Assembly (NCBI RefSeq): GCF_002868735.1
Contig: NZ_CP025611.1
Location: 3,242,501-3,306,500, forward strand
Length of the DNA: 64,000 bases
From: Niveispirillum cyanobacteriorum
Lineage (GTDB): Bacteria; Pseudomonadota; Alphaproteobacteria; Azospirillales; Azospirillaceae
Direction: 5' to 3'
The notes under the pieces: generated by a model
The model's input: the letters and a program-made list of their open reading frames with translations, nothing else
The model's database searches: none
Told to the model about the DNA's origin: nothing
In this document: in pieces, positions 57,783 through 63,947 of the stretch
How the letters are laid out: the number at the start of each line of letters is the position of its first letter
Position numbering within the stretch: position 1 is the stretch's first letter
Translations under genes and position numbers: made by a program

Positions 57783-58562
57783 ATGTCCGGTACCGAAATA
57801 ACCCTTGTAGATATCGCCAGCCGCGTCCTGCCATTGCTGGACCTGACCAGCCTGAATGACGCGGATGATGCCGACAGCACCGCCGTCCTGTGCGCAAAGG
57901 CCGTGACGCCAGTGGGCAATGTGGCGGCGGTCTGCCTCTGGCCGTCATTCATTCCGCAAGCGAAACAAGCCTTGTCTGGCAGTGGTGTGAAGGTGGCGAC
58001 GGTGGTCAATTTCCCCGGCGGGTCGCTGCCGGCGGACAAGGTGGTGGACCAGATCGCCCGCGCCCTGGCCGATGGGGCGGACGAGATCGACGTGGTCATG
58101 CCCTATGCCGCTGTGATGGCCGGCATGGGCGGTGATCAACGGGCCCAGGACCATCTGGCCGCCTGCCGGGAGGCCTGTGGGCCGGTGACCATGAAGGTCA
58201 TCCTGGAAAGCGGGGCGCTGGCCAAGCCGGCCCTGATCGAGCGCGCCGCGCAGGTGGCGGTGGCCGCCGGGGCGGATTTTCTGAAAACATCCACCGGCAA
58301 GGTGCCGGCGGGCGCCACGCCGGGGGCAGCCCGCATCATGCTGACCGCCTGTCGCGAGGCCGGGCGGCCCGTGGGCTTCAAGGCGTCGGGCGGTATCCGC
58401 GATGTGGAGACGGCGGCCCAGTATCTGGCCCTGGCGGACGAGATCTGCGGGCCGGGTTGGGCATCGCCGGCGACGTTCCGCTTTGGCGCGTCGGGCCTGC
58501 TGGATGCGCTGCTGGGCGTGCTGGGCCAGGGGCCGGCGGTCACGGTGACAGCGGGCTACTGA
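57783..58562 (+). CDS. deoC: Deoxyribose-phosphate aldolase
   Basis: DeoC splits deoxyribose 5-phosphate into acetaldehyde and glyceraldehyde 3-phosphate. The 259-residue product has the Schiff-base lysine in FLKTSTGK and the second lysine in VGFKASGGIR. EIDVVMPYAAVM replaces the usual EIDMVIN. It starts 1 nt after cdd. Its 3' end overlaps modC by 7 nt in convergent orientation. Confidence 0.94.
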   Translation: MSGTEITLVDIASRVLPLLDLTSLNDADDADSTAVLCAKAVTPVGNVAAVCLWPSFIPQAKQALSGSGVKVATVVNFPGGSLPADKVVDQIARALADGADEIDVVMPYAAVMAGMGGDQRAQDHLAACREACGPVTMKVILESGALAKPALIERAAQVAVAAGADFLKTSTGKVPAGATPGAARIMLTACREAGRPVGFKASGGIRDVETAAQYLALADEICGPGWASPATFRFGASGLLDALLGVLGQGPAVTVTAGY

Positions 58563-59200
58563 TCCACCGTTACCACCCCCTGGTCGACCCGTAGCCAAGC
58601 CGTGGCCAGGGCCGCCACCTCTTCGCTCTGGTGGGTGACATAAAGCATGGGCAGGCCCGTACCATCGCGTAGGCGCTGCAGGTAGGGTAGCAGTTCCGCC
58701 TTGCGGGCGGGGTCCAGCGCTGATAGCGGCTCGTCCAGCAACAGCAGGGATGGGTTGGACAGGAGCGCCCGCCCGATGGCCACCCGCTGCCGTTCCCCGC
58801 CCGACAGGTCACGGGGGTGGCGGTACAGCAGGTGGGCGATATCCAGCAGGTCGACGATGGCACCCAGCGTCGGTCCGTCCTGCCTGCGTCCACCAAACAG
58901 CCTTCCATAGAGAAGGTTGTGGCGGACATTCAGATGGGGGAATAGGCGCGCCTCCTGAAATACCTGCCCGACATGGCGGCGGTGGGGGGGGAGCCAAATC
59001 CGGCTGTCGGTGTCGACCAGAACCTTGCCATCTAGCGCGATCCGCCCCGCAGAAGGCCGGGATAGGCCAGCGATCAGAGACAGCAGGGTCGTCTTGCCGG
59101 CACCCGACGGGCCGGTGATAGCCGTGACGCCGGGGCCGATGGACAGCTCGGCGGTCAGGGTGAAGGTGCCGATACGGTGGGTTAGCGACAGATCAAGCAT
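58556..59200 (-). CDS. modC: Molybdate ABC transporter ATPase, lacking the Mop/TOBE domain
   Basis: The 214-residue product is the ATPase of a molybdate importer. It has the Walker A motif GPSGAGKTTLL, signature LSGGERQRVAIGRAL and Walker B LLLLDEPLSALD. Full-length ModC has about 350 aa because of a C-terminal molybdate-sensing TOBE domain; that domain is absent here, the stop following the ABC core directly. It overlaps modB by 8 nt. Confidence 0.9.
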   Translation of the reverse strand: MLDLSLTHRIGTFTLTAELSIGPGVTAITGPSGAGKTTLLSLIAGLSRPSAGRIALDGKVLVDTDSRIWLPPHRRHVGQVFQEARLFPHLNVRHNLLYGRLFGGRRQDGPTLGAIVDLLDIAHLLYRHPRDLSGGERQRVAIGRALLSNPSLLLLDEPLSALDPARKAELLPYLQRLRDGTGLPMLYVTHQSEEVAALATAWLRVDQGVVTVDQ

Positions 59201-59891
59201 CCCGCCCCTCCACCCGCCGGCGTACGCGGCGCGCCAGCAACTCGCTGGCTGTCACCGCGAGGATGGCGATCAGGGCGGCGACCAGAGTCAGGCGCAGGGC
59301 CGCTGCATCTCCGCCCGGCATCTGGGTCAGGCCATAGATGGCGGCGGGCAGCGTCTGGGTCACGCCGGGAATGGCGGCGACGAAGGTGATGGTGGCCCCG
59401 AACTCCCCCAGCGCCTTGGCAAAGCACAGGATGGCGCCGGACAGGATGCCGGGCAGCGACAAAGGCAGGGTGACGGTCAGGAACACGGCCCAGGGCGGGG
59501 CGCCCAGGCCAGCTGCCGTATCTTCCAGCCGCGTATCCACCGCCTCCATCGACAGGCGTATGGCGCGGACCAGCAGGGGGAAGGCCATGACCGAACAGGC
59601 CAGAACCGCCCCGGTCCAGTTGAAGGCGAACACGATCCCGAATTCGGCGAGGACCTGCCCCACCGGTCCCTTGCGCCCGAACAGCAGCAATAGCAGGTAG
59701 CCCGTCACCACCGGCGGCAGGACCAGGGGCAGATGCACCAGCGCATCCAGCAGGATACGTCCCGGAAAGGACCGGCGGGCCAGCAGCCAGGCCACCAGGA
59801 TCCCCGGCCCCAGGCTGACGGCAGTGGCCCAGCAGGCCACCTTTACCGACAGCCAGATTGCCGTCATTTCCTCCGCCGTGAAGCTCCCCAT
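59193..59891 (-). CDS. modB: Molybdate ABC transporter permease
   Basis: The 232-residue product is an inner-membrane permease with about five helices. The EAA-like cytoplasmic loop AAGLGAPPWAVFLTVTLPLSLPGILSG contacts the ATPase. AKALGEFGATITFVAAIPG is characteristic of ModB. It overlaps modA by 1 nt and modC by 8 nt. Confidence 0.94.
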   Translation of the reverse strand: MGSFTAEEMTAIWLSVKVACWATAVSLGPGILVAWLLARRSFPGRILLDALVHLPLVLPPVVTGYLLLLLFGRKGPVGQVLAEFGIVFAFNWTGAVLACSVMAFPLLVRAIRLSMEAVDTRLEDTAAGLGAPPWAVFLTVTLPLSLPGILSGAILCFAKALGEFGATITFVAAIPGVTQTLPAAIYGLTQMPGGDAAALRLTLVAALIAILAVTASELLARRVRRRVEGRDA

Positions 59892-60658
59892 TATTTGGTC
59901 AGCACCGTGAAGCCCTGATTGATGAAGTGACGCCGCCCCTCGTCTGTCTTCAGGAAATCGAGCAGCGGTTGGCTGGCAGCCTTGTCCGCCCCCTTCAGCA
60001 GGGCCACAGGATACTCGATCGGCGCGTGGCTGTCGGCGGGGAAGACGCCAACAATGGCCACGCCGGGTTCAACCCGCGCATCGGTAGCATAGACGATGCC
60101 GGCCCCGGCCTCTCCCCGTGCCACCAGCGCCAGGGCGGCGCGGACATTTTCAGCAGGTGCCAGCTTGTCCGATACCTGGGACCACAGGCCCAGCTTGGTC
60201 AGTGCCGCCTTGGCATAGCGTCCCGCCGGCACCGCGTTGACATCGCCCACGGCCAGCCGCCGTCCATTCAGCAGGGCGGCAATGTCCAGATTGCCATCAA
60301 TGGTCAGGCGCCTTGCCTGCGACCGCTCCATGACCAGGACCAGTTGATTGCCCAGGAAGGTGAAGCGGCTGTCGGCCTGCACGAGCCCGGCCTTGACCAG
60401 ATAATCCATCCATTCCTGATCGGCTGACATGAAGATATCTGCCGGTGCCCCCGCCTCGATCTGCCTGGCCAGAGCAGAACTGGCGGCATAGGCGGCGGTG
60501 GCGGTACCGCCCGTCTGGTCCCGGTAGGCCACCAATGCCTCGTCCAGCGCCGTCTTCAGGCTGGCGGCGGCATAGACGGTCGTATCCTTTGCCCAGGCCG
60601 CCGGTGCGAAGGCCAATGACACGGCGATGAGGAACGAGGGAAGGCGGGAACGGGCCAT
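59891..60658 (-). CDS. modA: Molybdate-binding periplasmic protein
   Basis: The 255-residue product has a signal peptide (cleavage near AWA-KD) and a type-II binding-protein fold, with YAAASLKTALDEAL at the N-terminus and SSALARQIEAGAPADIFMSADQEWMDYL in the middle, both usual for ModA. ATG 60658 has AGGA about 7 nt upstream. It is the first gene of modABC. A Mo-box lies 38 nt upstream of the start codon. Confidence 0.94.
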   Translation of the reverse strand: MARSRLPSFLIAVSLAFAPAAWAKDTTVYAAASLKTALDEALVAYRDQTGGTATAAYAASSALARQIEAGAPADIFMSADQEWMDYLVKAGLVQADSRFTFLGNQLVLVMERSQARRLTIDGNLDIAALLNGRRLAVGDVNAVPAGRYAKAALTKLGLWSQVSDKLAPAENVRAALALVARGEAGAGIVYATDARVEPGVAIVGVFPADSHAPIEYPVALLKGADKAASQPLLDFLKTDEGRRHFINQGFTVLTK

Positions 60659-60695
60659 AGTGCATCCTGACCTGAAGTTCAGCAGCAATAGATTA

Positions 60696-60721
60696 TCGTT
60701 ATGTCCATGGAAATACAACGA
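60696..60721. promoter_or_regulatory. Candidate ModE-type Mo-box upstream of modA
   Basis: TCGTTATGT and AATACAACGA are arranged with the outer 26-nt spacing of the E. coli ModE site. Seven of the nine outermost base pairs are symmetric, including the perfect TCGTT / AACGA ends. Molybdate-dependent repression of modABC is inferred; no modE gene is in the window. Confidence 0.6.
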
Positions 60722-61794: not shown

Positions 61795-62127
61795 ATGCCC
61801 TACGTCGTTACCGAGGCCTGCATCAAGTGCAAGTACACTGACTGCGTCGAAGTCTGTCCCGTGGACTGCTTCTATGAGGGTGAGAACACGCTGGTCATCC
61901 ATCCCGATGAATGCATCGATTGTGGCGTGTGCGAGCCGGAATGCCCCGCCGAGGCCATCCTGCCCGACACCGACCCGCGCGCCGAACAGTGGCTGGCCAT
62001 GAACCGCGAATATGCTGGGCAGTGGCCGGTCATCAACCGCCGCAAGGACCCGCTGCCCGACGCTGACGCCTGGAAGGGTGTGCCCGACAAGTTCGAGAAG
62101 CATTTCAGCCCCAAGCCGGGCAAGTAA
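61795..62127 (+). CDS. fdxA: Seven-iron ferredoxin FdxA
   Basis: The 110-residue product carries a [3Fe-4S] and a [4Fe-4S] cluster. The N-terminal cysteines are in [18 protein letters not shown] and the second set in [12 protein letters not shown]. The C-terminal extension ([20 protein letters not shown]) is typical of alphaproteobacterial FdxA. ATG 61795 follows GGAGTTCCGGGG. It lies upstream of carD, a common alphaproteobacterial arrangement. Confidence 0.96.
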
Positions 62128-62480: not shown

Positions 62481-62981
62481 ATGTCCGAAAGCCTAGATTT
62501 CACCACCGGGGATCACGTTGTGTATCCGGCCCACGGCGTGGGCCAGATCATCGGGATCGAAACCCACAGCATCGCCGACATGAGCGTGACGCTGTACGCC
62601 ATCCAGTTCGAAAAGGAACGGATGACGTTGAAGGTTCCCGTGGCGAAGGCCAAGGCCTCGGGCCTGCGCCGCCTGTCGACCAAGGACCGGATCAAGGCCG
62701 CCATGGAGACGCTGCAGGGCCCCAGCAAGATCAAGCGCATCATGTGGAGCCGCCGCGCCCAGGAATATGAAGCGAAAATCAATTCCGGCGACCCGGTTTC
62801 CATCGCGGAGGTCGTGCGCGACCTGTATCGTGGTGAGGACCAGTCCGATCAGTCCTACAGCGAACGTCAGATTTATCACGCAGCATTGGAGCGTCTGGCC
62901 CGCGAGCTGGCCGTTGTCGAGAAGATCGACGAGCGCAAGGCCACCGAAAAGCTGGAAGCCGTGCTGAGCAAGGCAGCTTGA
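62481..62981 (+). CDS. carD: CarD family RNA-polymerase-binding regulator
   Basis: CarD binds the beta subunit and stabilises open promoter complexes. The 166-residue product has the N-terminal Tudor-like RNAP-interaction domain (TTGDHVVYPAHGVGQIIGIE) and a C-terminal helical DNA-binding domain (MWSRRAQEYEAKINSGDPVSIAEVVRDLYR). The ATG at 62481 follows GGAAGAAGAG; a longer ORF upstream is not supported. A strong terminator follows. Confidence 0.96.
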   Translation: MSESLDFTTGDHVVYPAHGVGQIIGIETHSIADMSVTLYAIQFEKERMTLKVPVAKAKASGLRRLSTKDRIKAAMETLQGPSKIKRIMWSRRAQEYEAKINSGDPVSIAEVVRDLYRGEDQSDQSYSERQIYHAALERLARELAVVEKIDERKATEKLEAVLSKAA

Positions 62982-63043
62982 TCGGGGTACACCCACAAGA
63001 TCAAGCATCCCGCTGTTAAAAAATCGGGATATTTAGTATGAAA

Positions 63044-63075
63044 GGGGCGTTCACTTGTTGAACGCCCCTTTTTTT
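63044..63075 (+). terminator. Intrinsic terminator of carD
   Basis: GGGGCGTTC and GAACGCCCC form a 9-bp stem with a 7-nt loop, followed by seven Ts. Confidence 0.93.
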
Positions 63076-63128: not shown

Positions 63129-63947
63129 ATGTCGGATGATCGCAAATATGCCTTGCTGGGTCGGCCACGCCGCGTGTGGGCGGTGGGGGCCATCCATGGC
63201 GAGGCGGCGCGTCTGGCGGCCCTGCATGATGATGTCGGCAAGCGCTTCCTGCCCGGTGACCGTCTGGTCTATCTGGGCAACATGATCGGCCGGGGTGCCG
63301 CCGTTCGCGAGACGATTGAGGAATTGCTGTCCTTCCGGCGCGAGATCCTGGCGCGGCGTGGCGTGGTGGCGACCGACATCGTTTATTTGCGCGGCGGGCA
63401 GGAGGAGATGTGGCAGAAGCTGTTGCAGCTTCAGTTCGCGCCTGATCCCGCCGCCGTGTTGCAGTGGATGATCGGGCAGGGGCTGGACACCACCCTGGCG
63501 GCCTATGGCGGCAATGCCCAATATGGTCTGGTGTCGGCCAAGGAAGGGGCCGTGACGCTGGCCCGCTGGACCGGGGAGCTGCGTGCCGCGATGCGCGCTG
63601 CACCGGGCCATGACAATCTGCTGAGTGCGGTGCGCCGCTGCGCCTATACCAGTGCCCCGGACGGGGCGCCGACGGAACTGCTGTTCGTCAATGCCGGCCT
63701 GGACCCGGCCAAGCCGCTGCATATGCAGGCTGACATCTTCTGGTGGGGCGGCACTTCGTTCGCCCGCATCGTGGAACCGTATAACGGCTTCCGCCGTGTC
63801 GTGCGCGGCTATGACCCGATCCATGGGCCGGGGCCGACCGTCACCGATTTCACGGCCAGCCTGGATGGCGGGGCCGGCTTCGGTGGTCGCCTCATCTGCG
63901 CCTGCTTTGCCCCTGATGGGCAGATGCTGGAACTGGCCGAAGCCTGA
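63129..63947 (+). CDS. Degenerate PPP-family metallophosphoesterase homologue (pseudophosphatase)
   Basis: The 272-residue product aligns over its length with bacterial PPP-type phosphatases, but the signature residues are changed. GDxHG reads GAIHG (20-24), GDxxDRG reads GNMIGRG (50-56), RGNHE reads RGGQE (88-92), VHAG reads VNAG (187-190) and GHTP reads RGYDP (226-230). The C-terminal DGGAGFGGRL still matches the family (DTGAxYGGRL). The frame is open without stops, so it is probably a functional protein without phosphatase activity, perhaps a binding protein. It starts 54 nt after the carD terminator. The annotation as a phosphatase homologue is sure; its role is not. Confidence 0.85.
   Translation: MSDDRKYALLGRPRRVWAVGAIHGEAARLAALHDDVGKRFLPGDRLVYLGNMIGRGAAVRETIEELLSFRREILARRGVVATDIVYLRGGQEEMWQKLLQLQFAPDPAAVLQWMIGQGLDTTLAAYGGNAQYGLVSAKEGAVTLARWTGELRAAMRAAPGHDNLLSAVRRCAYTSAPDGAPTELLFVNAGLDPAKPLHMQADIFWWGGTSFARIVEPYNGFRRVVRGYDPIHGPGPTVTDFTASLDGGAGFGGRLICACFAPDGQMLELAEA

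Follow-up and report, generated by a model that had tools for sequence, protein, structure and literature searches.

Near the end of the window, the whole stretch of 64,000 nucleotides analysed from Niveispirillum cyanobacteriorum, a real open reading frame at 63129-63947 (+) encodes a protein of 272 amino acids that was assigned as a PPP-fold pseudophosphatase from the reading frame, a motif alignment and a predicted model. Upstream on the same strand is the open reading frame 62481-62981 (+), which we take from the sequence-only reading and from its own sequence to be carD, coding for a CdnL-type RNA polymerase-binding regulator, and further upstream is 61795-62127 (+), presumably an fdxA-type gene judging from its ferredoxin sequence, which forms the upstream end of a conserved fdxA-carD-pseudophosphatase block. 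The next gene after the pseudophosphatase is rpoH, located just past the window end (L031:5917-6804). An intrinsic-terminator-like hairpin with a 12-bp stem, a 5-nt loop and a T run was found by script between carD and the pseudophosphatase gene (63042-63075, +) and is at odds with simple co-transcription of the two; a terminator scan under its own rule listed none in this gap of the window. Further upstream on the opposite strand, three consecutive open reading frames for an ATPase, a permease and a binding protein (58556-60718, -) look like what we assume to be a molybdate-type ABC transporter.

In PPP enzymes two metals are bound by the residues D, H, D, N, H and H, and the GNHE His acts as the catalytic acid. 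The former motif 1, GDxHG, reads GAIHG in the window protein (63186-63200, +) with Asp replaced by Ala21 and His23 kept, motif 2, GDxxDRG, reads GNMIGRG (63276-63296, +) with Asn51 and Gly54 in place of its two Asp residues, and motif 3, RGNHE, reads RGGQEE (63390-63407, +), where Asn is replaced by Gly90 and the catalytic His by Gln91, Arg88 and Glu92 are kept and Glu93 is new. Motif 4, VHAG, reads VNAG (63687-63698, +), and motif 5, HGHT/GHTP, reads RGYDP (63804-63818, +) with His replaced by Tyr228 and with a new Arg226. The sequence-only reading had described a PPP-family protein deprived of nearly every metal ligand, and this was borne out, five of the six ligands and the catalytic acid being replaced. 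Its order of five degraded motifs and its motif letters also held, but its account of a loss of all ligands did not, as the His of GDxHG is retained together with the Arg preceding GNHE and the Glu of GNHE. His23 is the sole ligand kept, and the full set of six ligands and catalytic His that marks an active PPP enzyme is missing from the protein.

Catalytic losses across the family

The residue counts that follow are from 108 of the 145 members found in an even sample of the class Alphaproteobacteria, with 107 members readable for motif 1 and 104 for the motif 2 Arg. Position 21 is Ala in 70 members, Ser in 30, Pro in four, Cys in two and Thr in one, position 51 is Asn in 104 and Gly in four, and position 54 is Gly in 107 and Ser in one, with Asp found in 0/107 at the first of these and in 0/108 at each of the others. 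The Asn of motif 3 persists at residue 90 in two of 108 members, and residue 91 is Gln in 100/108 and His in a single one. The core loss of three Asp residues, the Asn and the catalytic His is thus fixed or nearly so. Outside this core the picture is more varied: His23 is present in 88/107 members, the His of VHAG survives in about half (49/108, with Asn in 26 and Ser in 21) and position 228 is His in four of 108. On the phosphate side Arg88 (106/108) and Glu92 (108/108) are retained, Arg55 of motif 2 is kept in 32 of the 104 readable members and the Arg of W-x-R is missing. The new Arg226 is found in 101/108 members.

These motif figures, and the distribution given below, were obtained by a class-wide profile search with no pattern filter. 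The scan of relatives relied on patterns that include the stretch around Gln91; it retained 80 of 440 relatives, and its motif counts are therefore biased.

Eighteen intact paralogues (L027-L030, L262-L274 and L283), bacterial PPP metallophosphoesterases from the same class, were collected as 17 second-tier matches of the relatives search and one match from the phylum search. The motif loops of the window protein align in order with those of all eighteen, as expected of the PPP fold with its five motifs, and the two groups have in common Gly118, Tyr126, His161 and Asp246 (18/18 paralogues each) and Gln200 (17/18). The catalytic set, by contrast, is complete in every paralogue (D, H, D, D, R, N, H, H, H in 18/18) and gone from the pseudophosphatase family. 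The family in turn has near-fixed residues that are rare or absent in the paralogues: Trp17, which is Tyr in 18/18 of them, Lys97, where 18/18 are gapped, Asp83, Glu93 and Trp147, each found in one of 18, Asn51, Gln91 and Arg226, found in 0/18, and Gly54 and Arg70, which also lack a paralogue match. The column of Arg226 is His in 17/18 paralogues.

In a maximum-likelihood tree built from 53 members and the 18 paralogues, the two groups were separated with a support of 100/100; the tree was midpoint-rooted, its bootstrap ran without full convergence according to a program warning, and other PPP groups lie outside it. The simplest account is that inactivation happened once, at the base of the family.

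Fold, profile matches and selection

The structure of the window protein was predicted at very high confidence (pLDDT 96.6, pTM 0.94), in agreement with the retained fold that had been proposed for it. Its matches in the PDB are mostly titled as PPP-type phosphatases or ApaH, which we take to be one clan, with the trypanosomal ApaH-like 2qjc among the top profile matches; the remaining rows are a few other phosphatase-titled entries or ciliary and signalling complexes that have such a chain. Pfam gave no metallophosphatase match for the protein at E values up to 1 and none over the gathering score of PF00149 or its relatives, and the pseudophosphatase is not among the eight places where PF00149 matches its own genome. 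Metallophos_3 was touched by three of 98 family members (best E value 0.001). ApaH was the NCBIfam model touched by the most members (31/98 with E values of 0.01 or below, the best being 9.6e-7), and orthology of the window protein to ApaH was rejected at a score of 16.4 against the curated cut-off of 176 bits of NF001204 (E 0.0043). True ApaH was found by the same model in 0/387 alphaproteobacterial genomes at E values up to 1e-40, in a search where E. coli alone matched among 14 control genomes. The likely ancestor would therefore be a general PPP phosphatase rather than ApaH.

The dN/dS ratio (Nei-Gojobori) had a median of 0.142 and a maximum of 0.364 over 86 close pairs from 42 taxa with at least 85% amino-acid identity, where 86/86 were below 0.5 and taxa are shared between pairs, which are thus not independent. 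These values supersede a wider set of 2837 pairs that included saturated ones (median 0.416, maximum 0.873). On the same pairs the neighbouring genes had lower ratios, at 0.008 for carD (79 pairs), 0.046 for rpoH (59) and 0.060 for fdxA (81), indicating that the pseudophosphatase gene is constrained and evolves faster than its neighbours. Intact orthologues in close relatives and a dN/dS near 1, which the sequence-only reading had named as counter-evidence to a repurposed non-catalytic protein, were seen neither among the 108 members read nor in the 86 pairs, and its preference for repurposing over decay is supported by losses that are class-wide, a low dN/dS and a high-confidence fold. A fold under selection combined with lost catalytic residues is what defines a pseudophosphatase, and the window gene encodes one such protein, from an ancient family of the Alphaproteobacteria.

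The five former catalytic loops, comprising 37 positions, had a mean column entropy of 0.97 bits compared to 2.00 elsewhere, and a block permutation reached this degree of conservation in 0/5000 random draws of equal-sized blocks. Near-fixation among the lost positions is confined to 51 (0.23 bits), 54 (0.08 bits) and 91 (0.58 bits), and positions 21, 90, 188, 207 and 228 vary (1.26-2.40 bits). The near-fixed set of the old pocket consists of the changed N51, G54, Q91, E93 and R226 together with R88 and E92, which are retained. Glycines that the fold needs regardless may account for some of this conservation of the loops; all in all, the former pocket face seems to be in use.

Distribution and gene neighbourhood

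The family was found in 145 of the 387 genomes of the class sample, with one match each, and was absent from 242. Its E values ranged from 3.8e-144 to 3.7e-53 and none fell between the latter and the limit of 1e-25, a gap which indicates a sharply bounded family. The carriers span 55 family labels, as counted from the class-sample result, and include genomes of only 1.2-1.6 Mb. Named carriers include Niveispirillum, Azospirillum, Nitrospirillum, Skermanella, Inquilinus and Telmatospirillum. Of the records with names, a Niveispirillum MAG and one titled 'Alpha proteobacterium AAP38' come nearest, each being 99% identical to the window protein. Matches were obtained in 31 of 40 relatives, the window genome included, of which 26 were orthologues and five were weak paralogue matches only; a fragmented genome of the same genus (G003, 92% complete in 540 contigs) had no match, and genome G006 had two partial matches on two contigs. 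In a phylum sample of 397 genomes, for which the number from other classes is not given, 14 matched and all belonged to the same class.

Orthologues on plasmids were also sought and rejected, as the 23 matching records were all below 60% identity and the 20 listed had 25-31%, which is paralogue-like; where annotated, these records are named metallophosphoesterase. The search match of one relative (L148, genome G310) contains an in-frame TAG. Two alphaproteobacterial-looking copies with carD and rpoH around them occur under the titles of an Anaerolineae MAG (L102) and of Mycobacterium sp. KBS0706 (L128), and it looks as if these titles are wrong or the bin is mixed.

The position next to carD, remarked on earlier for the window alone, holds family-wide: in the class sample carD is upstream on the same strand at 92 of the 105 loci with room (within 600 nt at 88), fdxA is upstream on the same strand at 79/101 and rpoH is downstream at 39/103. 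For 80 named loci the corresponding counts were 76/78, 74/77 and 48/75. The gap between carD and the pseudophosphatase gene shrinks to about 3-4 nt in L229 and L230, from two of the smallest, AT-rich genomes, and is 62 nt in L233. Under a crude rule a terminator-like hairpin is present in this gap at 24/90 loci, the window included, and the gap is shorter than 50 nt at 12/90, which together argue against tight co-expression with carD. Downstream of the gene on the opposite strand, 35/108 class-sample loci (L200 and 34 others) have an open reading frame for what its sequence led us to presume is an M48-type peptidase.

Among 20 tested genomes that lack the pseudophosphatase gene, carD was present in 17, which indicates that CarD works without it. 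At 17 carD loci of genomes without the gene fdxA was near in 12 and rpoH in four (L242, L244, L246 and L249, downstream in at least the last three), and part of the neighbourhood therefore predates or outlives the pseudophosphatase. A mirror-tree coupling to carD was weak and non-specific, with a distance correlation of rho 0.40, a partial value of 0.36 on fdxA and a similar carD-fdxA value of 0.39 partial on the pseudophosphatase. Presence of the gene was also compared with an Ala-Ala C terminus of CarD, the ClpXP degron type, which was found in 78/94 CarD proteins with the gene and 11/17 without it, giving no clear difference.

Proposed role of the former active site

Since five of the six ligands and the catalytic acid are replaced, the protein has lost its di-metal site and would not be expected to hydrolyse phosphoesters; its non-catalytic nature is very likely, and it is probably a non-catalytic binding protein. 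Binding at the old active-site face is proposed from the conservation of the former catalytic loops, and this face would hold a protein partner or a phosphorylated or nucleotide ligand that is not hydrolysed. The gene neighbours suggest a partner from the transcription initiation machinery (CarD, RpoH), and the protein would most likely tune a neighbouring transcription module made up of CarD on the sigma-70 RNA polymerase and the stress sigma factor RpoH. This specific role is put forward tentatively, as rather less than an even bet.

A serious contender, if one that falls short of evens, is that the protein is a real pseudophosphatase with a function unrelated to CarD and RpoH, and that fdxA, carD, the gene and rpoH form an old block that is slowly shuffled. 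The linkage of fdxA, a gene without an obvious tie, at nearly the frequency of carD is consistent with this, as are the hairpins between carD and the gene and the occurrence of rpoH near carD in genomes without it, but the link to carD persists at many loci where rpoH is not linked and the gap to carD has closed to a few nucleotides in two of the smallest genomes. A rather unlikely but real possibility is that the pocket acts as a ligand sensor, binding a nucleotide or phosphorylated molecule such as a dinucleoside polyphosphate, (p)ppGpp or an Np4-type RNA 5' end unhydrolysed, with the bound state controlling a partner. The unusually conserved pocket loops, the retained Arg88 and Glu92 and the ApaH and 2qjc profile matches point this way, and in E. 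coli ApaH takes off dinucleoside-polyphosphate RNA caps (PMC7044304). Two other phosphate-side Arg residues are, however, lost or variable, and the absence of true ApaH from the class sample makes a general PPP phosphatase the likelier ancestor. It is very unlikely that the pocket was rebuilt (Asn51, Gln91, Glu92, Glu93, His161, Asp202 and Arg226) for metal-free or single-metal chemistry: near-fixed polar residues that are absent or nearly so in the paralogues do occupy the old loops, but the bridging Asp and both other Asp residues of motifs 1 and 2 are gone from every readable member, the catalytic His is gone from 107/108 and His23 is variable. The chance that the gene is a decaying pseudogene left open by accident is negligible despite the loss of nearly all catalytic residues, given the same losses class-wide, a dN/dS of 0.14, conserved loops and a high-confidence fold, and the class-wide orthologues together with dN/dS likewise rule out a sequencing artefact.

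The preferred reading of a non-catalytic binding protein can be set beside known systems. Older eukaryotic surveys (PMC2175518 and PMC3827238, for instance) reportedly mention pseudophosphatases and the PPP family. VPS29 is a subunit of retromer with a metallophosphoesterase fold, where the fold serves as a binding scaffold; it is eukaryotic and outside the PPP subfamily, and the likeness is a precedent of fold only. The ApaH and ApaH-like phosphatases (2qjc, 2dfj and 9ojd) and RLPH2 (5vjv) are titled as enzymes, unlike the pseudophosphatase family. In the apicomplexan PPP pseudophosphatase PfPPP8 (PMC10317984), motif 2 has changed from GDxxDRG to GNLINRG, similar to the GNxxGRG of the bacterial family, whereas PfPPP8 is eukaryotic and part of a much larger basal-complex protein and the bacterial members are stand-alone proteins. 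The bacterial family differs further in having losses in all five motifs, and no orthology is implied. In searches of the open-licence PMC literature neither a PPP pseudophosphatase from bacteria nor any mention of the window gene came up. PPP pseudophosphatases are thus already known, and a bacterial, class-wide version with five altered motifs beside carD looks new.

The family, which is covered by none of the Pfam and NCBIfam models tested, resembles an ancient bacterial pseudophosphatase in which catalysis was lost early and the protein was then retained down to genomes of 1.2 Mb. In Caulobacter ClpXP clears CdnL during starvation, and a (p)ppGpp-sensitive adaptor for this proteolysis has been suggested and not identified (PMC11034885). 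It is distinctly unlikely, though worth stating, that the protein is a dedicated non-catalytic transcription regulator whose dead PPP pocket reads an alarmone, nucleotide or phospho state and signals to CarD, through its activity or turnover, and to RpoH. If this were true, the protein could be, in the lineages that carry the gene, a (p)ppGpp-sensitive adaptor of the sort suggested for CdnL proteolysis. The gene is a candidate regulator adjoining CarD and RpoH that is testable in laboratory strains such as Azospirillum, and the 108 members read as dead, set against 18 paralogues that are intact, provide a clean system for the re-use of an enzyme pocket.
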